This document shows positions 25,865-54,983 of a stretch of DNA of 64,000 bases, one piece after another. The stretch's first letter is position 1, and each line of letters starts with the position of its first letter. A program made the position numbers and the translations under genes. This DNA comes from Arthrobacter methylotrophus (GTDB lineage Bacteria; Actinomycetota; Actinomycetes; Actinomycetales; Micrococcaceae), in the NCBI RefSeq assembly GCF_039539965.1, contig NZ_BAABED010000001.1, positions 3,720,001-3,784,000 of the forward strand, read 5' to 3'. Under the pieces are notes generated by a model that worked only from the letters and a program-made list of their open reading frames with translations, ran no database searches and had not been told where the DNA came from.

Positions 25865-25889
25865 TGGAACGGCTTCGGAGGAGGCGGTC

Positions 25890-26015: not shown

Positions 26016-26108
26016 GGCAAGACTCTCATCTAGCACTGGCGCCCCAGACCGTCACCGATCAACCACACACCGCCACCCACACAGCGTAGCCAGAACCCCA
26101 CACACCAA

Positions 26109-26148
26109 AAACGCCGGAATCCCCGCCCATACGGGGATTCCGGCGTTT
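26109..26148 (-). terminator. Strong terminator of the zwf-opcA-gnd operon
   Basis: A perfect 16-bp stem (26109-26124 with 26133-26148) with an 8-nt loop ends in an A/T-rich edge. It lies 21 bp beyond the gnd stop on the leftward transcript. Confidence 0.85.
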
Positions 26149-26168
26149 CAGCCTGCGTGACTTCGGCC

Positions 26169-27605
26169 CTAGTGGGTGTCGACTGCCGAGATTTCGGACT
26201 TGTCTTCGCCCCAGAGGGTGTGGAAGGTGCCTTCAGCGTCGACGCGGCCGTAGGTGTGCGCACCGAAGAGGTCACGCTGTCCCTGGATGACCGCCGCGGC
26301 GAGGCGCTTGCGGCGCAGTCCGTCGTAATAGGCCAGCGAGGAGGAGAACACCGGAACCGGGATGCCCAGCTGGACAGCCGTGGCCACCACGCGCCGCCAT
26401 GCCGGCAGCGCACCGGCAATCGCCTTGGTGAAAGCCGGAGCGAACAGCAGGTTGGCCGGCTTCTCTTCGGCTGCGTAGGCGTTGGTGATTTCCTTCAGCA
26501 GCTCGGCACGGATGATGCAGCCACCGCGCCACAGCGAAGCGATTTCATCCAGCTTCAGGTCCCAGCCGTACTCCTTCGCAGCCGAGGTCAGCATGTCCAG
26601 GCCCTGGGCGTACGAAACGAGCTTGGAAGCGTACAGCGCCTGGCGGACGTCCTCGACGAAGTTCCCGGGAACCTCGACGGCGATTTCCTCACCCGCAAGC
26701 AGCTCCTGACCCAGCTTGCGCTGCTCCGCCTGGGAAGACAGGGCCCGGGCGAAGACCGACTCCGCAATGCCCGAAACCGGAGAACCGAGCTCCAGGGCGG
26801 AGATGACCGTCCAGCGCCCCGTACCCTTCTGCCCGGCAGCGTCCACGACGACATCCACGAACGGCTTGCCCGTCCTGGCATCAACGTGGCCCAGAACCTC
26901 CGCGGAAATTTCGATCAGGAACGACGCGAGTTCGCCCTTGTTCCACTCGGCAAAGATCCTGGACTGCTCAGCCGGCTCGATGCCCGCACCCGAGCGCAGG
27001 AGATCGAACGCTTCACCGATGACCTGCATGTCGGCGTACTCGATGCCGTTGTGAACCATCTTGACAAAGTGACCGGCACCATCAGTGCCGATCCACGCAC
27101 AGCACGGCTTCCCGTCAACCTTGGCAGAGATCTTCTCCAGCAACGGACCCAGAGCATCGTAAGACTCCTTGGAACCACCGGGCATGATCGAGGGGCCGTT
27201 GAGCGCGCCCTCCTCGCCGCCGGAAACACCCACGCCCACGAAGTGCAGCTCCTTCTCAGCCAATGCTGCTTCCCGGCGACGGGTGTCCTCGAAATGCGAG
27301 TTACCGGCATCGATCACAATGTCACCAGGCTCCAGCAAAGGAACGAGCTGATCGATCACAGCGTCCACCGGCTTGCCGGCCTTCACCATGATCAGGACAC
27401 GACGGGGCTTCTCCAAGGAATCAACGAGCTCCTGGAGGGTTTCCGTGCGGATGAAGTCACCATCCGTGCCGTGCTTAGCCAGCAGGGCGTCGGTCTTCTC
27501 AACGGAACGGTTGTGCAGAGCAACGGTGAAACCGTTGCGGGCCAAGTTGCGGGCCAGATTGGCGCCCATCACCGCGAGGCCGGTGACACCGATGTGTGCT
27601 GACAT
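26169..27605 (-). CDS. gnd: 6-phosphogluconate dehydrogenase, decarboxylating
   Basis: This 478-aa protein starts at the ATG at 27605. The N-terminal NADP fold (HIGVTGLAVMGANLARNLARNGFTVALHNRS), the signature MVHNGIEYADMQVIGEAFDLL and a C-terminal substrate-binding tail (GAHTYGRVDAEGTFHTLWGEDKSEI) define the long-chain Gnd family. It oxidises 6-phosphogluconate to ribulose 5-phosphate plus CO2, which regenerates the formaldehyde acceptor of the RuMP pathway. Its ATG overlaps the opcA stop (TGATG), so translation is coupled. It is last in the operon, before a strong terminator. Confidence 0.97.
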   Translation of the reverse strand: MSAHIGVTGLAVMGANLARNLARNGFTVALHNRSVEKTDALLAKHGTDGDFIRTETLQELVDSLEKPRRVLIMVKAGKPVDAVIDQLVPLLEPGDIVIDAGNSHFEDTRRREAALAEKELHFVGVGVSGGEEGALNGPSIMPGGSKESYDALGPLLEKISAKVDGKPCCAWIGTDGAGHFVKMVHNGIEYADMQVIGEAFDLLRSGAGIEPAEQSRIFAEWNKGELASFLIEISAEVLGHVDARTGKPFVDVVVDAAGQKGTGRWTVISALELGSPVSGIAESVFARALSSQAEQRKLGQELLAGEEIAVEVPGNFVEDVRQALYASKLVSYAQGLDMLTSAAKEYGWDLKLDEIASLWRGGCIIRAELLKEITNAYAAEEKPANLLFAPAFTKAIAGALPAWRRVVATAVQLGIPVPVFSSSLAYYDGLRRKRLAAAVIQGQRDLFGAHTYGRVDAEGTFHTLWGEDKSEISAVDTH

Positions 27606-28558
27606 CAAAACTCCAAAGATAGTAGTTCTAGAGATTTCGGAAGAATCTCCCGTTGTAAATGCTGGAGCACGTCGCCGAAGACCTCGTCGGGGTCGAGGCG
27701 ACGCAGTTCTTCGGCGAGGCAGTCCCGCAGGCTGCGGCGCGGGAGGGAGATCCGCTGGTCGGGCTGACCGGGCTGGGTCAACTCGGCGATGGACAGGCCG
27801 GAGCGGACCAGCTGGATGTCGCCACCGGGGCGGGTCAGCCGGACGCCGTGAATGCCGGTGCCGATACCGGCCGGGTCCGCGACGATGGTGACGGGGGCGT
27901 CCAGGGCCCGGTGGAGCCAGGCGGCGAGGAGGATGGTGCTGGGTGAATCGGAGGCGCCCTCGACCTCGATCGCCGTGACGGACCATGCATCTACTTGGTC
28001 CAGGGCGGCGGCGAGTTGGATGCGCCAGTTGCTCAGGCGTGTCCAGGCGAGGTCGGTGTCTCCTGCCCGGTAGGTTTCCCGGATCCGGGCCAGTGCTGCT
28101 GCGGGGTCGGGTTCGTTGGCGGAGTCGGTGATCCGGCGGTGCGCGATGCGTCCGATGGAGGTCTCGCAGGCGTTCTCGGGGGCGCCGTTCGGCCACCAGG
28201 CCACGATGGGTGCGTCGGGCAGGAGCAGGGCCGCGACGAGGGATTCGCTTTCCTTGGCGAGTTCCCCGTAGCCGCGCAGCACGATGACTTCCGAGGCCCC
28301 GGCGTCCCCGCCGACCCGGATCTGGGCGTCGAGGCGGGTCGGTGCCTGGGCGCCGGCGTCCGCGAGGACGATGATGCGGCAGGGGTGTTCGCGGCTGGCG
28401 TCGTTGGCTGCCTCGATGGCTTCTTCTTCCAGCCCGGATTTGGTGACCACTACCAGGGTCAGGACGCGTCCGAGGGCGATCACGCCTCCTTGCTCGCGCA
28501 GGGAGGTGATCTTCTTGGAGATCTTGGAGGTGGTGGTGTCCGGCAGGTCTACGATCAT
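27605..28558 (-). CDS. opcA: Glucose-6-phosphate dehydrogenase assembly protein OpcA
   Basis: This 317-aa protein has the OpcA pattern: an N-terminal MIVDLPDTTTSKISKKITSLREQGGVIALGRVLTLVV, a middle segment PDAPIVAWWPNGAPENAC..IGRIAHRRITDSA, and a C-terminal WLHRALDAPVTIVADPAGIGTGIHGVRL. OpcA supports assembly or redox activation of Zwf in actinobacteria and cyanobacteria. The start overlaps zwf by four bases (ATGA) and the stop overlaps gnd, an arrangement of tight coupling. Confidence 0.95.
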   Translation of the reverse strand: MIVDLPDTTTSKISKKITSLREQGGVIALGRVLTLVVVTKSGLEEEAIEAANDASREHPCRIIVLADAGAQAPTRLDAQIRVGGDAGASEVIVLRGYGELAKESESLVAALLLPDAPIVAWWPNGAPENACETSIGRIAHRRITDSANEPDPAAALARIRETYRAGDTDLAWTRLSNWRIQLAAALDQVDAWSVTAIEVEGASDSPSTILLAAWLHRALDAPVTIVADPAGIGTGIHGVRLTRPGGDIQLVRSGLSIAELTQPGQPDQRISLPRRSLRDCLAEELRRLDPDEVFGDVLQHLQREILPKSLELLSLEF

Positions 28559-30111
28559 GGCCTTCTCCAGGTTCGTCCGTCGCGGGCAAGCAGCTCATCG
28601 GCCGAGGCCGGGCCCCAGCTGCCGGGAGCGTAGGGTTCGGGTTGTTCGTCCAGGGACGCCCAGTAGTCCTCGAACGGGTCAAGGATCTTCCAGGACTCCT
28701 CGACTTCGGCGTGCCGCGGGAACAGCGGGGGTTCGCCCAGGAGCACGTCCAGGATGAGCCGTTCGTACGCTTCGGGGCTGGACTCGGTGAAGGAGTGCCC
28801 GTAGCCGAAGTCCATGGTCACGTCGCGGACTTCCATCTGCGTGCCCGGGACCTTGGACCCGAACCGGATCGTGGCGCCCTCGTCGGGCTGGACCCGGATC
28901 ACCACCGCGTTCTGACCGAAGTCATCCTCCCCGTGCCCGCGGAAGAGCAGGTTCGGTGCGCGTTTGAACACCACGGCGATCTCCGTGACCCGGCGCCCGA
29001 GGCGTTTACCGGCACGCAGGTAAAACGGTGCCCCGGCCCAGCGCCGGGTATGGATATCCAGGCGGATCGCGGCGAACGTTTCGGTCTTCGAATCGGCCGG
29101 GATGCCGTCCTCGTCCAAATACCCCTGGACCAGTTCCCCGCCTTGCCAGCCGCCGGTGAACTGGCCCCGGGCCGAGTGGGTGGACAGGTCCTCGGGCAGC
29201 CTGACCGCGGCCAGGACCTTTTCCTTCTCGGCCCGCAGGTCATCGGCGTTGAAGGAAATCGGCTCTTCCATGGCCGTCAACGCGAGCAACTGCAACAGGT
29301 GGTTCTGGATCACGTCCCGTGCCGCCCCGACGCCGTCGTAATACCCTGCACGGCCCCCCGTGCCGATGTCCTCGGCCATCGTGATCTGGACATGGTCCAC
29401 ATAGTTCGCGTTCCACAAAGGCTCGAAGAGCTGGTTCGCGAAACGCAGTGCCAGGATGTTCTGCACCGTTTCCTTGCCCAGGTAATGATCGATACGGAAC
29501 ACCGCGTCCGGCGGGAACACGGACTCCACAATATCGTTCAGCTGCCGGGCGGATTCCAGGTCATGACCGAAGGGCTTCTCGATCACCACCCGCCGCCACT
29601 GCCCGTCCCCGGCCTGGGCCAGACCGTGGCGGGAGAGCTGCCGGCAGACCTGCTCGAAGGCCTTGGGCGGAATCGAGAGATAGAACGCATGATTCCCCCG
29701 CGTTCCCCGGGTCTCATCCAGCTCATCCAGAGTCTCGGCAAGCCGCCTAAAAGCGTCGTCGTCGTCGAACTCCCCCCGCACGAAACGGATACCCTCGGCA
29801 AGCTGGCCCCACACCACCTCATCAAACGGCGTCCGGGAATACGCCCTGACGTTCGCCCTGACCTCGTTGGCGAAGTCCTCGCTACTCCAGTCGCGCCGGC
29901 CAAAACCGACCAACGCGAAACTCGGCGGCAACAGCCCCCGGTTGGCCAGGTCATACACGGCGGGCATGAGCTTCTTACGGGCAAGATCACCGGTGACCCC
30001 GAAAAACACCAACGACGACGGCCCGGCAATGCGGTTCAGACGGCGGTCACGCGGATCCCGGAGGGGGTTATGCCCGGACCTCACACCCGCATCAAGGTAA
30101 CTAACAGACAT
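28555..30111 (-). CDS. zwf: Glucose-6-phosphate 1-dehydrogenase
   Basis: This 518-aa protein has the Rossmann segment SLVFFGVTGDLARKKLMPAVYDL, the active-site signature RIDHYLGKETVQN with catalytic His following the IEKPFGHDL region, and an intact C-terminus (ESWKILDPFEDYW). It oxidises glucose 6-phosphate to 6-phosphogluconolactone with NADP. Here it would take G6P formed by PHI and PGI from fixed formaldehyde, giving two reducing steps per turn. The first ~38 codons are duplicated as a stump at 35953. It lies downstream of a 71-aa ORF and leads the opcA-gnd group. Confidence 0.97.
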   Translation of the reverse strand: MSVSYLDAGVRSGHNPLRDPRDRRLNRIAGPSSLVFFGVTGDLARKKLMPAVYDLANRGLLPPSFALVGFGRRDWSSEDFANEVRANVRAYSRTPFDEVVWGQLAEGIRFVRGEFDDDDAFRRLAETLDELDETRGTRGNHAFYLSIPPKAFEQVCRQLSRHGLAQAGDGQWRRVVIEKPFGHDLESARQLNDIVESVFPPDAVFRIDHYLGKETVQNILALRFANQLFEPLWNANYVDHVQITMAEDIGTGGRAGYYDGVGAARDVIQNHLLQLLALTAMEEPISFNADDLRAEKEKVLAAVRLPEDLSTHSARGQFTGGWQGGELVQGYLDEDGIPADSKTETFAAIRLDIHTRRWAGAPFYLRAGKRLGRRVTEIAVVFKRAPNLLFRGHGEDDFGQNAVVIRVQPDEGATIRFGSKVPGTQMEVRDVTMDFGYGHSFTESSPEAYERLILDVLLGEPPLFPRHAEVEESWKILDPFEDYWASLDEQPEPYAPGSWGPASADELLARDGRTWRRP

Positions 30112-30512
30112 TGTTGCCTTCTAACTTTTCGACGGTCAGTACAGCTGGCGACCGACCGTCACTAGAGGATTTGTGCGGCCGTTGACCGGCGGTCATGAGA
30201 GGACCTGCTCGCGGGTCTCACCAAAGGGAACCGCGGCGCTGAGCGCGAGCGTATATCGGCCAGGATGATGGCGGGTAACCAAGATTCCGGCAGACTGTTG
30301 GGGTAGCGCTACTTGCCGGAGCATGGCTTCTGCATCGTCGAGCAACTCGTAAAGCCGAGCAGGCTCTGTAACGAGGACTTCCAAATGCTCGGCGGTCTGA
30401 CTACGCATGCTGAACAGCTTCCTTCCCAGGGATTAGGGTTCCCAAATATGCCACCCCGCATATGAGGGTGTGTTGTGTCTTAGATCGAATACAGCGTGAT
30501 GGGGGCATCACG
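30100..30512 (-). repeat. Inverted duplication, arm A (small ORF plus zwf start)
   Basis: About 410 bp covering the end of a 74-aa ORF, a promoter-like dyad, the whole 71-aa ORF and the zwf start region recur in inverse orientation at about 35586-36000 with about 95 percent identity by eye. The spacer upstream of zwf differs between the arms. The arms bracket hxlBA copy 1, the flavin reductase operon and the MFS gene. Confidence 0.85.
30193..30408 (-). CDS. Conserved 71-aa protein upstream of zwf (copy 1)
   Basis: MRSQTAEHLEVLVTEP..LYELLDDAEAMLRQVALPQQSAGILVTRHHPGRYTLALS.. is 71 aa. Preservation of the frame in both duplicate arms (about five amino-acid differences, mostly conservative) shows it is a real gene. 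The start follows GGAAGGAAGC. It is soluble, with a helical first half and a strand-rich second half; no family is recognised. It sits between the hexulose-phosphate genes and zwf in the same orientation, so it may be part of the formaldehyde operon. Confidence 0.75.
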   Translation of the reverse strand: MRSQTAEHLEVLVTEPARLYELLDDAEAMLRQVALPQQSAGILVTRHHPGRYTLALSAAVPFGETREQVLS

Positions 30513-30704
30513 AACAAACAGATGGCGGCAGCCGGTGCCGTTCTCGATGACCCAGATCAGGTGGCCGTCGTCGGCACGGCCATCAATATAGGCGGCGTAG
30601 AGGAACGAACCGTTGGACCCGAATTCAACACAGTTGCCATACTGCAGGGAATTCCACCCGCGAACAGGCTGCTGGACAGAGAATCTGCGACTTCCCCCGG
30701 GCAT
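30480..30704 (-). CDS. 74-aa protein of unknown function
   Basis: MPGGSRRFSVQQP..GWNSLQYGNCVEFGSNGSFLYAAYIDGRADDGHLIWVIENGTGCRHLFVRDAPITLYSI: texture and composition look coding and aromatic-rich, like a small beta-barrel. Its last ~11 residues (RD.PITLYSI) are repeated after the MFS gene at 35586-35618, where only the tail remains as part of arm B. It lies between hxlA copy 1 and the 71-aa gene, all leftward. Function unknown. Confidence 0.5.
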   Translation of the reverse strand: MPGGSRRFSVQQPVRGWNSLQYGNCVEFGSNGSFLYAAYIDGRADDGHLIWVIENGTGCRHLFVRDAPITLYSI

Positions 30705-30789
30705 TCCCAGGGTTTGTTGATTCGTCAGTTCCTCCGCCGGGCTTGTACTGCCCCGCGGTGATGTAGCTCCGTGGACAGCACAGCTCAGA

Positions 30790-30839
30790 ACCTCCGAGGC
30801 TGCGGGTCCCTGAAGTTACAGGGGCTGCGCCTCGGAGGT
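30790..30839 (-). terminator. Hairpin after hxlA copy 1
   Basis: ACCTCCGAGGC and GCCTCGGAGGT form an 11-bp perfect stem with a nested CCCTG/CAGGG pair inside. It lies 14 bp beyond the hxlA stop, so it likely ends or attenuates the hxlBA transcript before the zwf operon. Confidence 0.75.
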
Positions 30840-30852
30840 GACGCCCGAGGGG

Positions 30853-31476
30853 TTAGACGATCGCGGCGCGCAGTGCCTTGGCTGCCAGGGCCGGGTCGGC
30901 TGCACCGTAGATCGCGCCACCGGCGACGGCGACATCAGCGCCGGCCTGCTGCACGGCGGCGATGGTGGACAGGTTCACGCCACCGGCCACGGAGAACGGA
31001 ACACGCGCTTCGGCTCCGGCACTGAGCAGACCGTTCAGGTCGTAACCGGGCTGAGCCTGCTCGTCCAGGCCCGCGTGCATCTCGACGAACTTCGCACCCA
31101 GCGCACGGACTTCCTTCGCACGGCTAACCTTGTCGGCCACACCGATAAGGTCAACCACGATGCCCTTGTTGTGGGCCTTGGCTGCCTTGACCGCACCGGC
31201 AATGGTGGAGTCATCAGCGCTACCCAGCACCGTAACCAGGTCCGCGCCGGCCTTGAAAGCGATATCGGCTTCAAGCTCCCCCGCGTCCATGGTCTTCATG
31301 TCAGCGAAAACGATCTTGTCCGGGTGGGCTTCCTTCACAGCAGTGACGACAGCAAGCCCGGCAGCCTTGATCAACGGGGTACCCAACTCAATGATGTCCA
31401 CGTACTCGGCAACCTTGCCGGCCAGTTCGAGAGCGTCTTCGGTCGTGAGGAGGTCCACGGCAACTTGGAGTTTCAT
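30853..31476 (-). CDS. hxlA: 3-hexulose-6-phosphate synthase (copy 1)
   Basis: This 207-aa OMPDC-superfamily aldolase condenses formaldehyde with ribulose 5-phosphate to give D-arabino-3-hexulose 6-phosphate. It has MKLQVAVDLLTTEDAL, the Asp-x-Lys active-site motif in VFADMKTMDAGELEAD, VDLIGVADKVSRAKEV and the phosphate-binding SVAGGVNLSTIAAVQQAGADVAVAGGAIYGA. The length equals that of the Mycobacterium gastri RmpA enzyme as I recall. It follows hxlB after about 140 nt rich in GC hairpins. Confidence 0.97.
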   Translation of the reverse strand: MKLQVAVDLLTTEDALELAGKVAEYVDIIELGTPLIKAAGLAVVTAVKEAHPDKIVFADMKTMDAGELEADIAFKAGADLVTVLGSADDSTIAGAVKAAKAHNKGIVVDLIGVADKVSRAKEVRALGAKFVEMHAGLDEQAQPGYDLNGLLSAGAEARVPFSVAGGVNLSTIAAVQQAGADVAVAGGAIYGAADPALAAKALRAAIV

Positions 31477-31616
31477 GATGATTTTATCTTTCTGTAGGGA
31501 ACTGCAGAGATGGTGATGGAAAAAACGGGGGCCCCGCTAAACCAGGGACCAGTAACCCGGGGCCAGCCAGACCGGGGCCGGTAACCCGGCGGGTTACCGG
31601 GGTTATACAGGGGGGG

Positions 31617-32216
31617 TTATTCGAGGTTGGCGTGCCTGAGCCACAGCTGTTCAGCCGGTTCGTCGGCGTTTTCCCACAGCGACTGGAACAAAGCCTCGGT
31701 AGCCAGGAACAACACCTGCTCGAACAGGGAACCGGAGTACTGGCGCGAAACACTCGAACCATGATCGGTCTTCTGCGCGGCAGGAATGATCACCAACGCG
31801 TCGGCCAGCCCGGCCAGCGGCGATTCCCGATTAGTGGTGAACGCGGCAATACGCGCCCCGGCCTTCGCCGCGGTCTCCGCGGACTTGACCACACCCGAGG
31901 TCGTTCCCGACCCCGAAGCCACCAAGAGCAGGTCCCCGGACGCGATTGCCGGAGTAGTGGTATCCCCGGCAATATGGACCGTCAAACCCAAATGCATCAG
32001 CCTCATCCCGGCCATGCGCAACACCAGACCACTCCGGCCCGCCCCGGCGACGAACACCCGGCCCGGCTGGCCAAGATGCCCCGCAAGACCAGCCAACTCC
32101 TGCACATCAATCTTGGCCGCCGTGTCCGCGATCTCATCCCTGACAAGCGCCAAATTACGCACAATATCACTCGTAGTGCTATACACCGCACGCGTCGCGT
32201 TAGCTGTCGGATTCAC
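31617..32216 (-). CDS. hxlB: 6-phospho-3-hexuloisomerase (copy 1)
   Basis: This 199-aa SIS-domain isomerase converts 3-hexulose 6-phosphate to fructose 6-phosphate. Motifs are RVFVAGAGRSGLVLRMAGMRLMHLG (sugar-phosphate-binding Ser), GDTTTPAIASGDLLLVASGSGTTSGVV and the C-terminal SSVSRQYSGSLFEQVLFLATEALFQSLW. The GTG at 32216 is chosen because it has AAGGGA 7 nt upstream and gives the length typical of the family; the frame is open further, but that part is a hairpin-bearing leader. It is first of hxlB-hxlA. Confidence 0.96.
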   Translation of the reverse strand: MNPTANATRAVYSTTSDIVRNLALVRDEIADTAAKIDVQELAGLAGHLGQPGRVFVAGAGRSGLVLRMAGMRLMHLGLTVHIAGDTTTPAIASGDLLLVASGSGTTSGVVKSAETAAKAGARIAAFTTNRESPLAGLADALVIIPAAQKTDHGSSVSRQYSGSLFEQVLFLATEALFQSLWENADEPAEQLWLRHANLE

Positions 32217-32625
32217 GATTTGGTCCCTTCGATTCGGCAAACGGCCATAAAGGCCGAATGGGTGCTTTCCGGTTGACATCCATGATCCAGAAGCAAAGGG
32301 GTGGGAGTAACGCTATTTTCTGACGGTTCTAACTACCCTTAAGGATTGGTGGGCGTCCCCGCTGCCCAGGCAAACTGTCCGGATAGGGACCAACTCACGC
32401 TGTGCCCTCAGCCGCCAGGTTGGGGGCACGGGCTCACCGGCACCACTAAACGGCCCGGTTCAACCGGAAAACACTCCCAAGTCTGTTCCGTGCAACCGGC
32501 ACGCCACCAGAGCCCGCCCCGGCACATAATTCCATGCCCGATGCGGGGCGAAGCCTCTGGGTAATTGAAACCGTCAAACGTGGGTGAGGTGTCCCCAACA
32601 AAGTTGCAGTGGACGCATGCAGGTC

Positions 32626-32740
32626 ACTCCGTGCTGGCTCCCGTGGAGAAATCCGTGATGACCACGGATGCACAGTATCTGTGACCCAATCCACACTGAA
32701 GGGGAAGCGTTGTAGATCCTGAATCTGAAACTTTCGGAGG
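32626..32740 (+). promoter_or_regulatory. Repeated promoter module P1, before the flavin reductase
   Basis: This stretch contains CCGTGGAGAA, then ATCCGTG-N5-CACGGAT (32651-32669, a perfect 7-5-7 dyad), then GTGAC..TCCACACTGAAGGGGAAG and GTTGTAGATC. The same blocks at the same spacing recur at 39720-39807 (reverse) and 48904-49020. About 190 nt of leader follow, including a TGTTGGGC/GCCCAACA hairpin (32844-32864), before the GTG of the flavin reductase. Confidence 0.75.
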
Positions 32741-32925
32741 CTTTTGTGAACGTCTCAATCCTATGTATCCGTGAACTTCGACTGGCCCTGAGTTAATTTG
32801 CGCCTGGCGTAGCCGCGGGTGACAGCACCGTTCATAGCACCCGTGTTGGGCTGGTTGCCCAACATCTGACAAATGGGTAGCTACGTAAGCCGCCGTCCTT
32901 ACCAAACAAATGAAAGGAAGAAATC

Positions 32926-33432
32926 GTGACTACACAAGTTGCTAACGACAGCCTCCTCCTCCAGGACGCTCTTTCACATTTTCCTGCAGGCGTGGTCGCC
33001 CTGTCGGCGACGGTCGAGGGCGAACCGCAGGTTATGGTCGCCTCCTCATTCTCTGTCGGAGTTTCGTATGAACCGTCCTTGGTTTTGTTCTCCGTTCAGA
33101 AATCTTCGTCCACTTGGCCCAAGATCAAGGAAGCTCCCCTGATTGGCGTGTCAGTAATGGGTGAGGACCACAATCCTGTCTGTCGTCAACTCGCCTCACG
33201 TGATAAGTCGAAGCGGTTCAACGGAGTCGAGACTGTTTCCGGGGGCCTAGGCGACATCTACATATCCGGGTCTCCCCTGTGGCTTACGTGCTCGATTTAC
33301 CAGGAAGTCGACGCCGGCGATCACATTCTCATCCTGCTGAAGATTGAAGATTTCCAGGCTCATAGCCTGCACATGCCGCTGGTGCTCCATCGTTCGATAT
33401 TGGGCCGCTTGGACCGCTTGGACCGCGTTTAG
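32926..33432 (+). CDS. Flavin reductase (two-component monooxygenase partner)
   Basis: 168 aa from a GTG with AAAGGAAG upstream. It has the flavin-reductase fold of the HpaC/DIM6-NTAB group: ALSHFPAGVVALSA, VMVASSFSVGVSYEPSLVLFSVQKSSSTWPKI, LIGVSVMGEDHNPVCRQLAS, and a C-terminal DHILILLKIEDFQ..PLVLHRS. It would supply reduced FMN from NAD(P)H to an oxygenase, the obvious candidate being the NtaA/DmoA-type enzyme at 41.8 kb. It is the first gene after promoter module P1. Confidence 0.9.
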   Translation: MTTQVANDSLLLQDALSHFPAGVVALSATVEGEPQVMVASSFSVGVSYEPSLVLFSVQKSSSTWPKIKEAPLIGVSVMGEDHNPVCRQLASRDKSKRFNGVETVSGGLGDIYISGSPLWLTCSIYQEVDAGDHILILLKIEDFQAHSLHMPLVLHRSILGRLDRLDRV

Positions 33433-33544
33433 CCCCCGAACGGAAGAACCATAAGTAGCCGTACCGGAAGACGACGAATCATGAATGGGTTCTCGCCGCC
33501 ACCTGGATCATCGTGATCCTTGGACAAATCGAAGGGAGGTTGAG

Positions 33545-33676
33545 GTGAAAAAGCGCCCACCCGTCCACTGCAGCAAATGCGGCCAGCAGCTCGTATTGCA
33601 CACTGCAGGCAACATCGCAGACTACCGGCATAACAGCATATGTCCGGCCATGATCGAGCTTAAGGAAGCAGCATGA
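33545..33676 (+). CDS. Small zinc-ribbon-like protein (43 aa)
   Basis: It starts at the GTG at 33545 with a strong GGGAGG. The sequence is basic and contains HCSKCG and a later Cys in NSICPAM, so it could bind one zinc with His/Cys ligands. The stop overlaps the start of a 20-codon mini-ORF by ATGA. It lies between the flavin reductase and a Nudix-fold gene in one transcript. Unknown function; an accessory or regulatory role is conceivable. Confidence 0.6.
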   Translation: MKKRPPVHCSKCGQQLVLHTAGNIADYRHNSICPAMIELKEAA

Positions 33677-33735
33677 TCTACGACAAGCAGTGCACCGTCT
33701 GGGGGCGGTCGCTGCCGTCAAAGCATTGCACGTGA
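33673..33735 (+). CDS. 20-codon mini-ORF coupling two genes
   Basis: ATG at 33673 overlaps the preceding stop (ATGA), and the stop TGA at 33733-33735 overlaps the next ATG (TGATG). The peptide is MIYDKQCTVWGRSLPSKHCT. It may be a real small peptide with a Cys pair, or simply a translational bridge; a frameshifted start of the Nudix-fold gene is another possibility. Confidence 0.35.
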   Translation: MIYDKQCTVWGRSLPSKHCT

Positions 33736-34289
33736 TGAACGTACAAGCCACTGCGTCTGACCAAGTCCGACGCATTAAGCCTGCTGGTCAGCCCTCGAGG
33801 CGAGTCGTCGACTCGAAGACGAGCGTAAGACAGCTTGACATTCTGCTGACGTGGAGGGGTCGGGTGGGTCTCTTCAAGAAGTCTGCGCACGGTTCAACGG
33901 CGAGCACCCCATGGGAACTTCTCTCCGTAGCCCATGCGGGCAGTGGGTGGGCTACGGATGAGGGATTCCTGCAGTGCATCCAACTGCTCCATGTGGAAAC
34001 CGGCCTCGCCGTTCGCGACATCCTCACGATTCAGCCTGGCCCCACTGTCGAGTTGGTCCACGGCTCGCAAAGCACCGACCACGTCATCTACGTGGTCGAA
34101 ACCAACCACCGGCGGCTGGCCCTTGGACCCGAGTATTCGGTTCACAGATGGGTCAAGAAGTCGAGGATCGGACGATTCGATGGTGGCGCCGATTGGCTCG
34201 AACCTGTACTTATGGCCGCCGTTTCCAGGCCGTCGAAATCGCCTGAGTTGGTCCACGACACGGCCGGCAACAAAGCCTTGTTGGCCTGA
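33735..34289 (+). CDS. Nudix-fold protein with degenerate Nudix box
   Basis: This 184-aa protein aligns by eye over most of its length with the Nudix protein at 51.6 kb: LDILLTWRGRVGLFKKS, WELLSVAHAGSGWATDEGFLQCIQLLHVETGL at the Nudix-box position, then DHVIYVVETNHRRLALGPEYSVHRWV and a final ADWLEPVLMA. The metal-binding Glu residues of the box (REUxEExG) are replaced, so hydrolase activity is unlikely; a ligand-sensing role, as in NrtR-type regulators, is possible, though no DNA-binding domain is visible. The opposite strand is also open (33894-34256) but lacks homology. Confidence 0.6.
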   Translation: MNVQATASDQVRRIKPAGQPSRRVVDSKTSVRQLDILLTWRGRVGLFKKSAHGSTASTPWELLSVAHAGSGWATDEGFLQCIQLLHVETGLAVRDILTIQPGPTVELVHGSQSTDHVIYVVETNHRRLALGPEYSVHRWVKKSRIGRFDGGADWLEPVLMAAVSRPSKSPELVHDTAGNKALLA

Positions 34290-34353
34290 ATGGTCTCAGC
34301 CCCATCAAGCGAAACCCCAGACGCAAGTCCCGACGAATGAGTTAAGGAAACGA

Positions 34354-35583
34354 ATGACACTCAAACAAGCAACCCTGCCCGTAGTGCGAGGGCGCACCAG
34401 GTCTATTCGCCTGATTCTGCTGTGTCAGGTCCTGACCTTGGCCGTCTGGTTCGCCTCGACTGCCGCGTTACCTAGCATCGCTGTCCATGAATCCATTTCT
34501 GAGACACAAATGGCGTTGATGACCAGTGTGCTGCAGGTAGGGTTCGTTATCGGTGCTCTGGTCAGTGCTTTTCTCAATGTGGCAGACAGATTTGACCCCC
34601 GGAATCTCTTTGCAGTGTCGGCGGCCGTGGCAGCACTGACTACGGCAGCCCTGCTTGTGGTGTCTCCTGTAGGAACCGAAGCGTTGATTCTCAGGGCCCT
34701 TACCGGAATATCCCTGGCAGGGATCTACCCCGTGGGTATGCGTATGGTGGCCAGTTGGGCGACCAATGACCTGGGAAAACTTGTCGGCCTACTGGTCGGA
34801 GCACTGACCATAGGATCTGCACTGCCCCATCTCTTCACCATCGGTGAAGCGTGGGACTGGAAACTTGTTTATGCCGTCTCATCAATCGCTGCCCTGTCGG
34901 CAGCAGGCCTGGTCAAACTTGTGAAGCTCGGACCAGCCTTCACTCGGGCGCAAAAGTTCGACCCAAACATCGCGAAAGCTGCTTGGCTCCAACGGCCAGT
35001 CCGTCTGGCCAACCTGGGGTATCTCGGCCATATGTGGGAACTGTACGCAATGTGGGCCTGGATCGGGCTGTTCTTCCGGGCATCCTTGGATGCAAGGGGA
35101 ATGAACCAACCAGGACTTGCAGCCGCAGCCACCTTCATCGTCATTGCCGCGGGCGCTCTGGGGGCAATGATCGGGGGGCGTTTAGCCGACCGATTTGGTC
35201 GCACAGCTGTCACGATTTATTCCATGGCAATCAGTGGTGCATGCGCGCTGACGGTCGGATGGCTCTTTGGCGGGCCACCTCTGCTCATCCTCTTCGTGGC
35301 CGTAATCTGGGGCATCTCGATCATTGCGGATTCTGCCCAATTCTCGGCATGCGTCGTAGAACTCTCACCCCCCGAGTCAGTGGGCACCATGCTGACCATC
35401 CAAATCTGTATGGGCTTCGCACTAACCCTCGTCACGATCCAATCCATGGGCTTCGTTGTCAGCCATTTGGGATGGGGAATCGGATTCTCGATGCTCGCCC
35501 TAGGTCCGCTCTTTGGCTGCCTGGCCATGTGGCTGCTGAGGCGCGATCCAGCGTCGCATCTGCTTGCGGGCGGACGCAAATGA
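34354..35583 (+). CDS. MFS transporter of the C1 region
   Basis: This 409-aa protein starts at the ATG at 34354 after TTAAGGAAA. About 12 helices are seen, with an MFS motif at GGRLADRFGRTAVTIYSM in the second half and conserved TGISLAGIYPVGMRMVASW in helices 4-5. It resembles the CynX/NimT-NarK-like branch of small-solute carriers. It ends the flavin-reductase transcript, so uptake of the methylated substrate or export of a product is the natural guess. The stop overlaps the arm-B repeat. Confidence 0.85.
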   Translation: MTLKQATLPVVRGRTRSIRLILLCQVLTLAVWFASTAALPSIAVHESISETQMALMTSVLQVGFVIGALVSAFLNVADRFDPRNLFAVSAAVAALTTAALLVVSPVGTEALILRALTGISLAGIYPVGMRMVASWATNDLGKLVGLLVGALTIGSALPHLFTIGEAWDWKLVYAVSSIAALSAAGLVKLVKLGPAFTRAQKFDPNIAKAAWLQRPVRLANLGYLGHMWELYAMWAWIGLFFRASLDARGMNQPGLAAAATFIVIAAGALGAMIGGRLADRFGRTAVTIYSMAISGACALTVGWLFGGPPLLILFVAVIWGISIIADSAQFSACVVELSPPESVGTMLTIQICMGFALTLVTIQSMGFVVSHLGWGIGFSMLALGPLFGCLAMWLLRRDPASHLLAGGRK

Positions 35584-35585
35584 TG

Positions 35586-36000
35586 CGTGATGATCCCATC
35601 ACGCTGTATTCGATCTAAGACACACCACACCCCTATATGAGGGGTTGACACCTTTGGGAACCCTAATCCCTGGAAAGGAAGCTGTTCAGCATGCGTAGTC
35701 AGACCGCCGCGCATTTGGAAGTCCTCGTTACAGAGCCTGCTCGGCTTTACGAGTTGCTCGACGATGCAGAAGCCACGCTCCGGCAAGTAGCGCTGCCCCA
35801 ACAGTCTGCCGGTATCCTGGTCACCCGCCATCATCCTGGCCGATACACGCTCGCGCTCAGCGCCACGGTTCCCTTTGGTGAGACCCGCGAGCAGATCCTC
35901 TCATGACCGTCGGCCAACGGCCGCACCGCGTGTATCAAGCTATAAGGCAACAATGTCTGTTAGTTACCTTGATGCGGGTGTGAGGTCCGGGCACAATCCG
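35586..36000 (+). repeat. Inverted duplication, arm B
   Basis: Mirror copy of arm A. It contains only the tail of the 74-aa ORF (RDDPITLYSI), a dyad ACCCCT-N5-AGGGGT (35629-35645) upstream of the 71-aa ORF, that ORF complete, and the first codons of zwf. The dyad is less perfect in arm A, which suggests it is an operator that has drifted there. Confidence 0.85.
35691..35906 (+). CDS. Conserved 71-aa protein (copy 2)
   Basis: Same protein as at 30193-30408 with about five substitutions (Ala for Glu at 7, Thr for Met at 29, Thr for Ala near 59, Ile for Val near 69). RBS GGAAAGGAAGC. It precedes a zwf stump and then pgi, so in both arms this small gene leads a sugar-phosphate gene set. Confidence 0.75.
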   Translation: MRSQTAAHLEVLVTEPARLYELLDDAEATLRQVALPQQSAGILVTRHHPGRYTLALSATVPFGETREQILS

Positions 36001-36067
36001 CTCCGACGGCCGAGACCGCCGGCTATCACCGGTGGCGGGCCCGTCCTCCCTGGTGCTCTTTGGCGTA
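35953..36067 (+). pseudogene. zwf 5' stump
   Basis: ATG at 35953 begins MSVSYLDAGVRSGHNPLR exactly as in zwf, then frame is lost. After the shift the reading VAGPSSLVLFGVTGDFAGRSS matches Zwf residues 29-46 (IAGPSSLVFFGVTGDLARKK). The remainder of zwf is absent, replaced by a tkt-like fragment and pgi. This marks a deletion or recombination junction. Confidence 0.85.
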
Positions 36068-36266
36068 ACCGGTGACTTCGCCGGTAGAAGCTCATGTCGC
36101 GGTGTATGACCAGACTGAAGGTATGGCTGCCCGTGTCTCGGTCGAGGCAGGCTTTGCCCTGGGCTGGAAGGAATTCGTCGACGATGCCGGCCGTTCCGTC
36201 AGCCCGAAAGGCATTCCGCGGCGCCATCGCAAGCTGCCACCAATTTCGAAGGAAGAAACAGAAGCC
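36068..36266 (+). pseudogene. Transketolase C-terminal fragment joined to pgi
   Basis: In frame with pgi, the sequence ARVSVEAGFALGWKEFVDDAGRSVS matches the C-terminal domain of transketolase (VSVEAG..xGWxxFVGDAGRSVS). It is followed by unrelated residues up to the pgi ATG. The order tkt..pgi-zwf is common in Arthrobacter-type pentose phosphate operons, so this looks like a condensed remnant of such an operon. Confidence 0.6.
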
Positions 36267-37997
36267 ATGACCGATGCAACACCCACCGCACAGCTTTCCG
36301 CCGCCGGCGTGTCCACCTGGTTGGATGACCTTTCACGGGAACGTCTTTCCAGCGGCAGCCTGCAGAAGCTCATCAGCTACGACGCCAGCGGTGCTGCGCA
36401 GCAGGCCATCGAGCAGCACGTCCCGGCCCTTGTTGAAGACCGGATTGCCACCAGGATTTTCGCGAAGGACCACACGTTGTGGGGTCCCGATGCGGAGTCC
36501 GAGTCCGCCGTCCGTCTTGGATGGGTGGACGCGGCGACCGTTTCCCGGTCCTTGGTCGAAGGAATCCTGGAACTCCGGGATGCCCTCAGGGCAGAAGGTG
36601 TCTCCCGCATTGTCCTGTGTGGCATGGGCGGTTCTTCGCTTGCTCCGGAGGTCATTGCCGGCACCGCCGGCGTCGAGCTGACCGTGCTGGACAGCACCGA
36701 CCCCGAACAGCTCGGTGCCGCCCTGACGGACCGCCTGGCCCAGACCGCTATCGTGGTCTCGTCCAAGTCCGGCTCTACCGTGGAAACCGACTCGCAGCGA
36801 CGGGTGTTCGAGCAGGCCTTCACCTTGGCCGGCATCGATGCCAAGAGCCGCATCATCATCGTGACCGATCCGGGGTCCCCGTTGGACAAGGCCTCCCGGG
36901 AAGCCGGCTACCGGGCCGTCTTCAACGCGGACCCGAACGTCGGCGGCCGGTTCTCGGCGCTCACGGCTTTCGGGCTGGTCCCCAGCGGCCTCGCCGGAGT
37001 CGATATCCAGGCATTCCTGGACGAGGCCGAGGAAGCAGCGGAGATCCTGAACGAGGACTCCCCCGAAAACATCGGGCTCCGGCTCGGCGCTGCCCTGGGC
37101 GGCACCACCCCGCTGCGCAACAAGATCCTCATCGTCGAAGACGGCTCCGGCATTGTCGGTTTCGCGGACTGGGCCGAACAACTCATCGCCGAGTCCACCG
37201 GCAAGCTCGGCACGGGCGTGCTGCCGGTCGTTGCCGGTCCTTCCGCCCCCGAGGTCAGCAGCGGCGCGGACGACGTCCTGGTGATCCGCCTGGTCGGTGC
37301 GGACTCCGACGTCGAACTCGGTGAGAACGAAGCGGCGATCGCCGGTGGCCTGGCCACGCAGATGTTCCTCTGGGAATTCGCCACCTCGGTCGCAGGGCGC
37401 CTGCTGGGCATCAACCCCTTCGACCAGCCCGACGTCGAGGCGGCCAAGATCGCCGCGCGCGGCCTGCTGGACGCCCGTCCCGAACCCACCCCCGCCGCGT
37501 TCACCGACGGCGCGATCGAAGTACGCGGCGGTGACTGGCTCCGTGGTGCAGCCACCGCAGAGGAAGCCGTCGGGGCCCTCTTGGGAACGCTCGATGACGA
37601 CAGTTACCTCAGCGTCCAGGCCTACTTCGACCGGATCGCGTACGCCGGGTTCGAGGGTGTCCGTGACGAACTCGCCCGCCTCAGCGGCCGCCCGGTCACC
37701 TTCGGCTGGGGTCCGCGCTTCCTGCACTCCACCGGACAGTTCCACAAGGGCGGGCCCGCCATCGGTTCATTCCTGCAGGTAACGGCTTCCGCGAACGGCG
37801 ACATCGCCATCCCGGAACGGCCATTCACTTTCGGCCAGCTCATCACGGCCCAGGCCGCCGGCGATGCCCAGGTCCTGGAAAACCACGGCCGCCCGGTCCT
37901 GCGCCTACACCTCACAGACCGTACAGCCGGGGTCGCCCAGCTCCAGGACATCATCGCTGCGCTTGGCGCCCGGCCTGCCCTCGTCGCGGCAAGCTAA
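36267..37997 (+). CDS. pgi: Glucose-6-phosphate isomerase
   Basis: This 576-aa protein is read from the ATG at 36267 (AAGGAAG upstream); the longer frame from 36072 is a relic fusion. Motifs are RIVLCGMGGSSLAPEVIAGTAG, VVSSKSGSTVETDSQ (SIS phosphate loops), NVGGRFSALTAFGLVP, and the C-terminal GWGPRFLHSTGQFHKGGPAIGSFLQV. It interconverts fructose 6-phosphate (from PHI) and glucose 6-phosphate (for Zwf), closing the oxidative RuMP cycle encoded here. It runs rightward, away from the leftward zwf-opcA-gnd operon. Confidence 0.95.
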   Translation: MTDATPTAQLSAAGVSTWLDDLSRERLSSGSLQKLISYDASGAAQQAIEQHVPALVEDRIATRIFAKDHTLWGPDAESESAVRLGWVDAATVSRSLVEGILELRDALRAEGVSRIVLCGMGGSSLAPEVIAGTAGVELTVLDSTDPEQLGAALTDRLAQTAIVVSSKSGSTVETDSQRRVFEQAFTLAGIDAKSRIIIVTDPGSPLDKASREAGYRAVFNADPNVGGRFSALTAFGLVPSGLAGVDIQAFLDEAEEAAEILNEDSPENIGLRLGAALGGTTPLRNKILIVEDGSGIVGFADWAEQLIAESTGKLGTGVLPVVAGPSAPEVSSGADDVLVIRLVGADSDVELGENEAAIAGGLATQMFLWEFATSVAGRLLGINPFDQPDVEAAKIAARGLLDARPEPTPAAFTDGAIEVRGGDWLRGAATAEEAVGALLGTLDDDSYLSVQAYFDRIAYAGFEGVRDELARLSGRPVTFGWGPRFLHSTGQFHKGGPAIGSFLQVTASANGDIAIPERPFTFGQLITAQAAGDAQVLENHGRPVLRLHLTDRTAGVAQLQDIIAALGARPALVAAS

Positions 37998-41819: not shown

Positions 41820-43223
41820 ATGGCAAATGAGCAGAACACCAAGAAGCGCATGATCCTGAACGCGTTCGACATGAACTGCGTGGTGCATCAGAACCCTGGG
41901 ATGTGGGCGCATCCTGATGATCAATCCCACCGCTATAAGGACGTAGACTACTGGACCGATTTGGCAAAACTCCTTGAGCGTGGGGGATTTGACTGCCTCT
42001 TCATTGCAGATGTCCTCGGCTTCTACGATGTTTACGGCGGATCACGTGACACCGCACTTCGCACTGCAGCCCAGGCGCCTGTCGGAGATCCGGCTATCCC
42101 GGTGGCAGCGATGGCGGCTGTGACGGAAAGGCTGGGATTCGGGGTTACGAAGTCACTGACTTACGAACTTCCGTATTCTTTCGCTAAGACGATGACCACT
42201 CTGGACCACATCACAAAGGGCCGAGTCGCCTGGAATATCGTGACGTCGTATCAAGCGAGCGCAGCCGAGAACCTGGGGCTGGTCAAGCAGATCCCGCATG
42301 ACGAGCGTTACGCGGTGGCGGACGAGTTCATGGAGGTTTGTTACAAGCTTTGGGAAGGGTCGTGGGAGGACGACGCCGTGGTTAGGGATAAGAAGAACCG
42401 TATCTTCACGGATCCGTCTAAAGTCCATAGCATCAACCACGAGGGGAAGTATTACAAGGTTCCCGGTGCCCACCTAGGGGAGCCGAGTCCACAGCGCACT
42501 CCATTCCTGTTCCAGGCGGGCACATCCAAGAAGGGCATGGAGTTCGCCGGGAAGCACGCTGAGGCCGTGTTCGTCATCGGCACCAGCCCGGAAGAGCTGC
42601 GCCCCACTGTGGACAAGCTGCGCCAGCAGGCCGCTGCGGCAGGCCGGGACCCCCGCAGCGTGAAGATCATCGTGATGTTGACCCCGATCACGGCACCGAC
42701 GGATGAGGAAGCCCAGGCCAAACTTGAGGACTTCAACCAGTACGTAGACATGGACGCGGCACTGACCCTGTTCGGCGGCTGGACAGGCATCGATATGTCT
42801 TCAGCGGCGGCAGATCAGCCCCTGGAGAGCATGGAGAGCGACGCCATCCGGGCAATGATCGAAATGCTGACCGGCGTTGACAGTGAGATTGTCTGGACCA
42901 AGGAGCGGCTGGCGAAATGGCTGTGCATCGGCGGATTTAGCGCTTCAGTGGTTGGATCGCCGAAAACCATCGTCGATGAGATGGAGCGATGGATGGAGAT
43001 CGCCGATGTCGACGGCTTCAACCTTGGCCGCGTCATTGCACCCGGGACCATGAAGGACTTCGTGGACCTTGTCGTTCCCGAACTGCGCAAGCGAGGTCAC
43101 GTCCCGCAGGAACCGCTCGCCCCCATGACTATGCGTGAACGTCTCACAGGTGACTCTCGACTCCCGTCAGAACACGCTGGCGCCAGCTACAGGGTGGGCG
43201 CTGAGGCATCGGTTTCCCGATAA
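41820..43223 (+). CDS. FMN-dependent monooxygenase, NtaA/SnaA/DmoA family
   Basis: 467 aa, ATG after AAAAGGA. It is a bacterial-luciferase-like (TIM barrel) enzyme: ILNAFDMNCVVHQNPGMW, GGFDCLFIADVLGFYDVY, AAVTERLGFGVTKSLTYELPYSFAKTMTTLDH, GRVAWNIVTSY, KLWEGSWEDDAV and KVHSINHEGKYYKVPG, then EPSPQRTPFLFQAG. These blocks look closest to dimethylsulfide monooxygenase (DmoA), which yields methanethiol and formaldehyde, but the family also attacks NTA, EDTA and dibenzothiophene sulfone. It needs reduced FMN from a reductase such as that at 32.9 kb. Surrounding formaldehyde-fixing genes favour a demethylating role. A strong terminator follows. Confidence 0.9.
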   Translation: MANEQNTKKRMILNAFDMNCVVHQNPGMWAHPDDQSHRYKDVDYWTDLAKLLERGGFDCLFIADVLGFYDVYGGSRDTALRTAAQAPVGDPAIPVAAMAAVTERLGFGVTKSLTYELPYSFAKTMTTLDHITKGRVAWNIVTSYQASAAENLGLVKQIPHDERYAVADEFMEVCYKLWEGSWEDDAVVRDKKNRIFTDPSKVHSINHEGKYYKVPGAHLGEPSPQRTPFLFQAGTSKKGMEFAGKHAEAVFVIGTSPEELRPTVDKLRQQAAAAGRDPRSVKIIVMLTPITAPTDEEAQAKLEDFNQYVDMDAALTLFGGWTGIDMSSAAADQPLESMESDAIRAMIEMLTGVDSEIVWTKERLAKWLCIGGFSASVVGSPKTIVDEMERWMEIADVDGFNLGRVIAPGTMKDFVDLVVPELRKRGHVPQEPLAPMTMRERLTGDSRLPSEHAGASYRVGAEASVSR

Positions 43224-43371: not shown

Positions 43372-43683
43372 ACTCTTTCCGGGCAGTATTCTTCTACGAT
43401 GAGACTCGACACATGCCAGCTCGGGAGAGCGCGTTTCTAGCCACGGAGCCAGTCGCTCTAATCCAGGAATTACACAATTTCCGCAAGCGGAGTGAGTCCA
43501 ACACCCGCGGAAATCTACGTGTCACAACAGGCCCCGTATTGTTGGTGGCTGCACGTTGGCCGCTCCGCACGTGCCTACTCTTGTCCGATCAGTTCGAACT
43601 ACGCATGAGACCGGTTGAAGGCTTCCGGTTGAGTGTAGTGTTTAACTGCCACACCTTTGGGGGTTCAGAGAGGAATCCATTCA

Positions 43684-46600: not shown

Positions 46601-46737
46601 CAAAGTCGTATCTGCGAGACGCTCGTGCTACATACATGAAGCTCACGATGCCTCGTCATGTTGCGATCTGTGATCTGGACTTGGAACCGAACCAGACTGC
46701 GAGCAGATTGCCGGGATTCGCCGACACTGGCCATTGA
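43684..46737 (+). CDS. Large LuxR-type ATPase regulator with N-terminal HTH
   Basis: 1017 aa from the ATG at 43684 (AGAGGA 9 nt upstream; an upstream TTG is unlikely). Residues about 15-75 are a LuxR/GerE helix-turn-helix (RGITAREWEVLQAVLDHLTNGEIAAALSISVRTVESHVSNLL). An AAA/STAND ATPase follows (GEFVGRGPELRQL, Walker A GDAGIGKSRL, Walker B VLLVVDDLHW), then a long helical TPR-like region. Usual LAL/MalT regulators carry the HTH at the C-terminus, so the order is reversed. It sits between the monooxygenase and riboflavin kinase and is the best candidate activator of the repeated promoter modules. Confidence 0.9.
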   Translation: MPADSKQLQSGSLRDRGITAREWEVLQAVLDHLTNGEIAAALSISVRTVESHVSNLLTKFEVTDRSGLVAAVQANQNAEPVRLEAPPSLLRMASAGEFVGRGPELRQLHNEWGKVQGGAQGLVLISGDAGIGKSRLVAEFARQISVTDDPVVLHGRCDEDVAGPFEALGQALAPYLRACDPGRLAAELGDLAEELSRIVPNSGLRLPRVPVDAMHSDPHFIRSRLFDAVTRVFRQASTSSPVLLVVDDLHWAPEPTLLLLRHLMQRGMLERTLIVCTLRPGYFSDALIDFLGELRRDAMPVQLELGGLHRLEVAQLLGADVGSAVSRDDIFSERLAYDIFSETRGNPLYAGELIRSLGEDNGPRSAGNADVPHGVKDIVAARVRRLRQETQTMLGMAAVLGQAFELSVLQRLAEVDDQTLLEGVEEATQAQLLYDVTGISPGAVERYEFVHAIVRKAIIESVSPARVRRIHAAAAAALEQLFSHALEERADEIARHLVQAGPISDRQNIMRYLTMAGRAALGSSAAEEGLRYLNQAMVIMDTAEASDRAELWFQRGLALRMIGRWPDSVASLRTALNIYAEMGDVRAISRTSCEATHTMFWFFRMKEARDLAAYGLERLGSHEGAERGRLLGALSFAQAWSGEYESSVDNIRRELEIASRLEDTELRGHGLAMRAMQLPAFLEHTEAVAAGYEALEILRHSSDVWTLTSMLGFLNYTLVGLGRLGEARAIGAELAPIAVRVGNYAAQQQHTRMNAMIEFFQNGSPAALERFARKDLAFCHAVGLATPEHSLAWLGLAKFLAGEWEEAKEAYSAALETEAETGMVGWGWSALFELLAYMGDSQAAMSLLEKNRNTFPQLDKANTCGSWVAALTAVEGLVVLGELKQAAELLPAIEQCIERTGVVCIEFRAGRLVKRSAAIAAAAAGDWTRAERYFREALQDAESIPHVVERAHTLRFHGKMLLQSGEKSSSERAKSYLRDARATYMKLTMPRHVAICDLDLEPNQTASRLPGFADTGH

Positions 46738-54931: not shown

Positions 54932-54983
54932 ACTTTCCTTCAATCTCAGGCGGTTCTTGCTGACTTGAACACTACAACACACA

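Follow-up and report, generated by a model that had tools for sequence, protein, structure and literature searches.

We analysed a 64,000-nucleotide stretch of Arthrobacter methylotrophus DNA (contig NZ_BAABED010000001.1, positions 3,720,001 to 3,784,000; hereafter the window, in whose coordinates features are given unless otherwise stated) that carries a cassette of ribulose monophosphate (RuMP) cycle genes. The genes form a single leftward run on the minus strand (26169-32216), which would be read as one transcript in the order hxlB, hxlA, s2, s1, zwf, opcA and gnd. They encode 6-phospho-3-hexuloisomerase (PHI; hxlB, 31617..32216, TIGR03127, 227 bits for a cut-off of 160), 3-hexulose-6-phosphate synthase (HPS; hxlA, 30853..31476, TIGR03128, 256 bits for 200), glucose-6-phosphate dehydrogenase (zwf, 28555..30111, 518 aa, TIGR00871, 641 bits for 400.6), the Zwf assembly protein (opcA, 27605..28558, TIGR00534, 220 bits) and an NADP-type 6-phosphogluconate dehydrogenase (gnd, 26169..27605, 478 aa, TIGR00873, 669 bits for 426.7). 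The hxlB and hxlA frames are thus open and above their cut-offs, and Zwf, 6-phosphogluconate dehydrogenase and a phosphoglucose isomerase (PGI, see below) are also present. OpcA falls under its cut-off (220 vs 256 bits, over model positions 1-300 of 313), as does the housekeeping OpcA of the same genome (233 vs 256 bits); its C-terminal tail is altered at the gnd junction and is unlike those of the housekeeping copy and of a second cassette (cassette A, below). No lactonase gene was seen within the cassette, and a region-wide Rfam search (26000-51000) returned no match at E up to 0.1.

An earlier note on this DNA had placed HPS, PHI, PGI, Zwf, OpcA and Gnd here and argued that they close an oxidative RuMP cycle. 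NCBIfam and Pfam profile matches bear out each of these genes at its place, and their identities support the predicted cycle. The overlapping stops and starts described for zwf-opcA-gnd are also real, reading ATGA at zwf/opcA and TGATG at opcA/gnd. The gene set therefore stands, whereas the coordinates had to be corrected to those given above for gnd (26169-27605) and for hxlB, which most likely starts at the GTG at 32216, a start that other species have as well.

Between hxlA and zwf lie s2 (30483..30704, minus strand, 74 aa) and s1 (30196..30408, minus strand, 71 aa), listed in the note as two small open reading frames (ORFs). They behave as real genes, being conserved and showing slightly more than half of their differences at third codon positions: 53% of those between s1 relatives (14 of the 29 aligned sequences, the alignment having 12 invariant columns) and 52% for s2 (the 5 of 16 sequences that are equally long). 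No Pfam or NCBIfam match was found for s1 at E up to 0.1, and s2 has no NCBIfam match and a sub-threshold Pfam match (E 0.026). At least 33 of the 47 s1 hits scoring 105 bits or more lie within 2 kb of hxlA and at least 38 of 47 within 5 kb. The idea of s1 as a family restricted to RuMP loci was rejected, weaker relatives being found in 206/206 genomes of the genus at E up to 1e-8; the link to hxlA holds for the high-scoring subfamily only. A distant s1 relative (35%) occurs in locus L031 (14235-14435; C1:444.2 kb), about 5 kb from a sub-cut-off HxlA paralogue.

The local pgi lies on the plus strand (36267..37997) and runs opposite to hxlB-gnd. It encodes a 576-aa chimera, tal'-pgi, in which about 36 transaldolase residues are joined to PGI, the transaldolase N-terminus standing in for the first 3-4 PGI residues. 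The chimera is identical to the housekeeping PGI at 527/543 aligned residues, with an unlike C-terminal end. It scores 424 bits against the Tal/PGI fusion model NF007080, under the cut-off of 712 and on the PGI part of the model, and passes PF00342 when read from the tal-derived start region (26.1 bits, cut-off 22). The Pfam PGI family gave no match in the genome at E up to 0.001 and thus missed the PGI that is there; pgi copies were therefore located with a protein query.

The plus-strand flank of the cassette also encodes a flavin reductase-like protein (32926..33432; PF01613, 96 bits), a candidate partner of the DmoA-like monooxygenase discussed below, and a major facilitator superfamily (MFS) transporter (34354..35583; PF07690, 110 bits). 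An inverted duplicate (35586..36111, plus strand, 83%) of 29949-30512 follows, with a second s1 (35691-35903) and a zwf 5' remnant; remnants of both tkt and zwf lie upstream of the chimeric pgi. In Pseudarthrobacter sulfonivorans ALL (L094), hxlA, flavin reductase (86%), MFS transporter (93%), s1, tal'-pgi and zwf are found in one direction. The order flavin reductase-MFS-s1-tal'-pgi is the same in both; zwf directly follows pgi there, unlike here. The tal'-pgi ORF of that strain has 597 aa, with a longer transaldolase part (about 57 residues vs about 36 here), and 475/595 aligned positions are identical. We had considered the chimera a local accident, and rejected this because of the similar chimera in P. 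sulfonivorans ALL. Pieces of an ISL3 transposase (38080-39065, minus strand) are a sign of rearrangement near the cassette, as are an IS110-like fragment (40136-40678, plus strand) and a fuller IS110 transposase (55677-57173, plus strand).

The zwf and tkt remnants, the chimeric PGI, the altered OpcA tail, the transposase fragments and the inverted duplications could be taken to mean that the region is a mosaic of gene duplicates in decay that no longer has a function. We consider this very improbable: every enzyme ORF is open, s1 and s2 show codon-position bias, and tal'-pgi has its counterpart in P. sulfonivorans ALL. Moreover, the region is conserved in a genome flagged as belonging to the same species (G030), which we infer, from agreeing hxlA coordinates, to be that of Arthrobacter sp. 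MA-N2. There, 23733-36658 is colinear at 96.0% over 12,952 bp and holds full-length hxlB, hxlA, zwf, opcA and gnd. A loss of PGI in MA-N2 was considered and dropped: two 100-N gaps lie at the site, and chimera residues 1-131 are present before them.

The cassette is not alone in the genome (5,080,853 bases, 6 contigs). A housekeeping operon, tkt-tal-pgi-zwf-opcA-pgl, lies at 1.50 Mb, its pgl encoding 6-phosphogluconolactonase (TIGR01198, 212 bits), and a housekeeping gnd lies at 1.294 Mb. The second zwf-opcA-gnd and pgi that the earlier note had proposed to look for thus exist, which means that the cassette genes are not the sole pentose phosphate genes. Above the family cut-offs, the whole genome holds four copies of hxlA (77 kb, 3.751, 3.770 and 4.289 Mb) and four of zwf (three in cassettes and one housekeeping), besides weaker or broken copies of both. 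In all, the chromosome carries three RuMP cassettes, that of the window included. Cassette A (C1:76-98 kb) carries hxlB-hxlA-zwf-opcA, an NAD-type gnd relative (TIGR00872), a gene for a LuxR-type protein and tkt-tal-rpe-rpiB-fba; cassette B (C1:4.279-4.293 Mb) is nearly a copy of A, though rearranged, and has tkt-tal-rpe-rpiB. The cassette tal genes are named from their place and from an N-terminus that matches the transaldolase model, as does the fragment in the window. A fourth hxlBA pair lies in the window beside the DmoA-like gene: the second hxlB (49208..49807, plus strand, SIS domain) differs from the first at 0/199 residues and the second hxlA (49927..50550, plus strand) at 1/207.

Other duplicated material includes an additional pgi accompanied by a zwf whose middle part is missing (L029; C1:4.0438-4.0465 Mb), another relic of duplication, and a trehalase-like GH15 protein (24029-25864, plus strand), of which cassette B has a copy with 99.5% nucleotide identity at C1:4.286 Mb. 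A plasmid origin was dropped, the window lying in a 4.92-Mb contig of the 5.08-Mb genome. Eighteen plasmid records matched 26169-50600, all in short pieces and none over more than 80% of the region; the annotated pieces are zwf/opcA, gnd and transposases.

What sets the cassettes apart is a 30-bp element. The cassette genes hxlB and tkt have in common the GTG start, the first residues VNPTANA and a block of upstream sequence, from which we drew the pattern GTAGTNAKAACCGTCAGAAANNAGYGTTNC. The window holds one site (32307..32336, minus strand), upstream of hxlB, and 100 shuffles of the sequence held none; we propose it as an operator. The whole genome has five sites at up to 3 mismatches, against none for the reversed control: three precede hxlB, in cassettes A and B and in the window, and the other two precede the tkt genes of A and B. 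That these five match exactly follows from the way the pattern was built; the result is its absence elsewhere, and the same scan found no site at the housekeeping loci or at the second hxlBA pair.

The element recurs in relatives. We took the best 80 loci of 254 hxlA relatives in species genomes, and since a genome may contribute several, they are not independent. At up to 5 mismatches, 46 sites were found in 35/80 loci (control 0), namely 33 before hxlB, 10 before tkt, 2 before hxlA and 1 unassigned, and the conservation reaches Cryobacterium and Mycobacterium. A candidate regulator is the LuxR-type protein of cassette A, which has 439 aa and a C-terminal LuxR-type helix-turn-helix, and whose gene (C1:91943-93262) is divergent before tkt; an 87% copy lies at C1:4.313 Mb. 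Homologues occur in 53/80 loci, starting within 600 bp upstream of 38/72 hxlB and 8/11 tkt starts. The element (up to 3 mismatches) is present at 32/72 hxlB and 8/11 tkt starts, and only 7/72 and 0/11 have neither. Among the 46 starts with an adjacent LuxR homologue, the element is found at 10/14 with a homologue of 74% identity or more and at 0/32 with a less similar one, a split picked post hoc, the data having already been seen. From these patterns we infer that the LuxR-type protein and the 30-bp element are a regulator-operator pair. Among the matches listed, none of the literature titles and abstract openings on LuxR or other regulators reported such a link.

A 1,643-bp tract of zwf/opcA (28079..29721) shows no difference from the housekeeping copy at 1.50 Mb, and we read it as a gene-conversion tract: identity in 100-column bins is 66, 89, 97 and 83% before it and 98, 92, 62, 87 and 63% after it. 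Over the same stretch, cassette A is 96-100% like the housekeeping copy. We built a Zwf tree of 28 sequences (17 cassette, 11 housekeeping) from this genome and 13 of 14 genomes searched, one genome giving no match at E 1e-150 and MA-N2, 35W and G208 giving no housekeeping copy. No separate lineage of cassette zwf was found on it: cassette and housekeeping labels change 10 times, at least 6 of them forced by supported branches, compared with a mean of 9.0 after shuffling (454/500 shuffles were as low). Within a genome, cassette and housekeeping Zwf are between 76.1% and 97.6% identical (10 genomes), which implies that homogenisation was recent in some genomes and old or absent in others. The gnd copies within a genome agree at 98.9% of nucleotides here, 99.7% in MA-N2 and 99.0% in 35W, vs 79-80% between 35W and the others. 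Cassette zwf and gnd thus appear to have been repeatedly homogenised with their housekeeping copies rather than forming separate enzyme lineages. Among the matches listed, no literature title or abstract opening on gene conversion with Arthrobacter or RuMP reported this.

The same three observations, namely the mixed tree, the near-identical gnd copies within genomes and the converted tract, would be expected if the cassette were simply extra dosage of the ordinary pentose phosphate pathway, supplying NADPH and ribulose-5-phosphate in general with no tie to formaldehyde. We regard this as unlikely because several genera have zwf after hxlBA, in many cases separated from it by s1, and because the element is missing from the housekeeping operon. 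The earlier note had called the cassette dedicated and separate. Separate from the housekeeping copies it is, but its Zwf and Gnd have no lineage of their own, so that "dedicated" would refer to control and not to enzyme descent.

A possible source of formaldehyde lies between the two hxlBA pairs. The gene at 41820..43223 (plus strand) encodes a DmoA-like, flavin mononucleotide (FMN)-dependent monooxygenase (TIGR03860, 527 bits), whose best match among solved structures is the dimethyl-sulfide monooxygenase 6AK1 (E 1.3e-169), followed by the alkane monooxygenase 3B9N (E 2.8e-143). Compared with Hyphomicrobium DmoA (6AK1), 246 residues are identical over query positions 8-459, about 54% identity, which makes dimethyl sulfide a candidate substrate. 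In the part of a 2022 study considered here, expressed DmoA enzymes gave no detected methanethiol (PMC9259527). Next to the DmoA-like gene are a large AAA-ATPase/LuxR-type regulator (43657..46737, plus strand; PF13191, PF00196) and a stand-alone riboflavin kinase domain corresponding to the C-terminal part of RibF (46904..47377, plus strand; PF01687, 106.5 bits), which might supply FMN. DmoA-like relatives (E up to 1e-150) occur in 16/206 genus genomes, 11 at 50-55% and 5 at 91% or more; the latter are this genome, the same-species strain and three more at 91-93%. One of these three (G200, 93%) appears from its coordinates to be P. sulfonivorans ALL, a user of dimethyl sulfone. A like arrangement (LLM, LuxR, hxlB, hxlA) is found in 35W (L098).

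Methylamine is a second candidate substrate, to which a copper amine oxidase gene about 7 kb before the hxlB of cassette A points. Genes for a nickel transporter, a ureohydrolase-like protein and an NCS1 transporter also precede that cassette (L024 6069-10497; C1:70.1-74.5 kb). The ureohydrolase is agmatinase-like, and our guess is that the substrate of the group may be a methylated compound of the guanidine or urea type. Within the stretches covered, amine-oxidase DNA is found in six places, in some of them shorter (C1:66.5-69.3, 83.9-85.9 and 88.1-90.9 kb; 4.050-4.053, 4.296-4.298 and 4.307-4.309 Mb), and this repetition resembles the full and partial mao copies reported for MA-N2 (PMC5023230).

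Genes for HPS and PHI may also serve simply to remove formaldehyde, with the oxidative genes running it to CO2 without supporting growth. Relatives of hxlA (E up to 1e-60) occur in at least 133/206 genus genomes, and Hps and Hpi are known from non-methylotrophs too (PMC5023230). Of the 80 loci, 68 have at least 3 kb downstream of hxlA; zwf lies within 3 kb of hxlA on the same strand in 22/68 (one, L111, a fragment only), from Arthrobacter, Pseudarthrobacter, Paenarthrobacter, Cryobacterium, Mycobacterium and Mycolicibacterium, and is not within that distance in 46/68. Mere detoxification nevertheless seems improbable to us here, because the genome has the assimilatory part of the cycle, the one-carbon-type tkt-tal-rpe-rpiB and fba, and because the conspecific strain MA-N2 was isolated as a user of methylated amines (PMC5023230).

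We therefore consider it probable that the locus is a RuMP cassette burning formaldehyde to CO2, switched through the element and a LuxR-type protein, in what is probably a methylotrophic Arthrobacter. HxlA would join formaldehyde from methylated substrates to ribulose-5-phosphate and HxlB would isomerise the product to fructose-6-phosphate, which PGI, be it the local chimera or the housekeeping enzyme, would convert to glucose-6-phosphate. Ribulose-5-phosphate would then be regained, with release of CO2 and NADPH, through Zwf-OpcA, hydrolysis of the lactone (spontaneous or by a lactonase from another locus) and Gnd. A LuxR-type regulator whose gene lies near the other cassettes would switch on the operon hxlB-hxlA-s2-s1-zwf-opcA-gnd via the 30-bp element, and the element-less second hxlBA pair would follow the DmoA-like module, a possible formaldehyde producer.

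Several observations weigh against this proposal. (i), A full gnd within 6 kb of hxlA is found in just 2/68 relatives, MA-N2 and 35W. (ii), Since Zwf and Gnd do not form a separate lineage, they may contribute to normal flux through the pentose phosphate pathway as well. (iii), The element and a LuxR gene are both adjacent at only 5/72 hxlB and 5/11 tkt starts, so that their pairing is correlative, and 20/35 element loci have a LuxR homologue anywhere in the stretch. (iv), The window contains no copy of the 439-aa regulator, and its cassette, which has the element, would therefore be controlled in trans. (v), A simple sigma-70 promoter scan found no site, yet shuffled sequence gave 2.0 on average. 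(vi), The predicted OpcA and PGI have an altered tail and an altered N-terminus, respectively.

Beyond the cassette, we give about an even chance to an undescribed actinobacterial RuMP regulon that comprises a LuxR-type regulator of about 440 residues, the 30-bp element, the s1/s2 operon, gene-converted enzymes and rewired promoters. The regulator, divergent from hxlB or from one-carbon-type tkt, would bind an element conserved from Arthrobacter to Mycobacterium, and the operon under its control would also yield s1 and s2 as small accessory proteins. Methylotrophy would then have been gained by promoter rewiring rather than through new zwf or gnd genes, recurrent conversion keeping the enzymes interchangeable.

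A methylotrophic Arthrobacter would be expected to have such a cassette; what is added is a DNA element with a candidate regulator that could explain how formaldehyde use is switched in Gram-positive methylotrophs, together with two small proteins and the possibility that rewiring recruited central enzymes, which gene conversion has kept similar. It is tempting to speculate that the element marks methylotrophy-type hxlBA operons as opposed to plain detoxification pairs, a distinction that HPS or PHI genes by themselves do not allow. It is the hypotheses on the regulon and on the small proteins that merit pursuit.

Elsewhere in the window, a Pycsar-like pair (58675-59885, minus strand), of which one member is a PycTM effector-type protein and the other weakly matches a nucleotide cyclase, is a candidate for anti-phage defence. 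An AbiEii-type nucleotidyltransferase of a type IV toxin-antitoxin system (61707-62582, plus strand) and a Fic-domain protein with Fic_N (53750-54982, minus strand) are also encoded. Near genes for isochorismatase and IclR, hydantoinase A and B (oxoprolinase-type) are fused in a single 1288-aa protein (8375-12241, plus strand).

A dissimilatory RuMP cycle operates in Bacillus methanolicus and in Gram-negative methylotrophs. The predicted reactions are the same here (HPS, PHI, PGI, Zwf, Gnd), whereas the presence of OpcA and of several chromosomal cassettes is unlike the case of those organisms. Closer systems are the one-carbon clusters of MA-N2 and 35W, for which Table 2 of McTaggart et al. 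2015 gives Hpi 1686, Hps 1687, Zwf 1690, OpcA 1691 and Gnd1 1692, and Hpi 3587, Hps 3588, Zwf 3590, OpcA 3591 and Gnd1 3592, respectively (PMC5023230). Genes and order are the same as here, the match resting on the numbering in that table and not on sequence. The earlier note's expectation that such a cassette would be notable in an Arthrobacter thus does not hold, the same genes being tabulated in the same order for MA-N2 of this very species; the dissimilatory RuMP cycle is moreover described as known in Gram-positive methylotrophs (PMC5023230). Figure 2 of the same paper marks regulatory genes; the element, s1/s2 and gene conversion are not described in the sections considered here (PMC5023230). 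The present strain is also another than MA-N2, and its PGI is open over the full length where the MA-N2 site falls in assembly gaps. The cluster is thus of a published kind, here mosaic and present in multiple copies.

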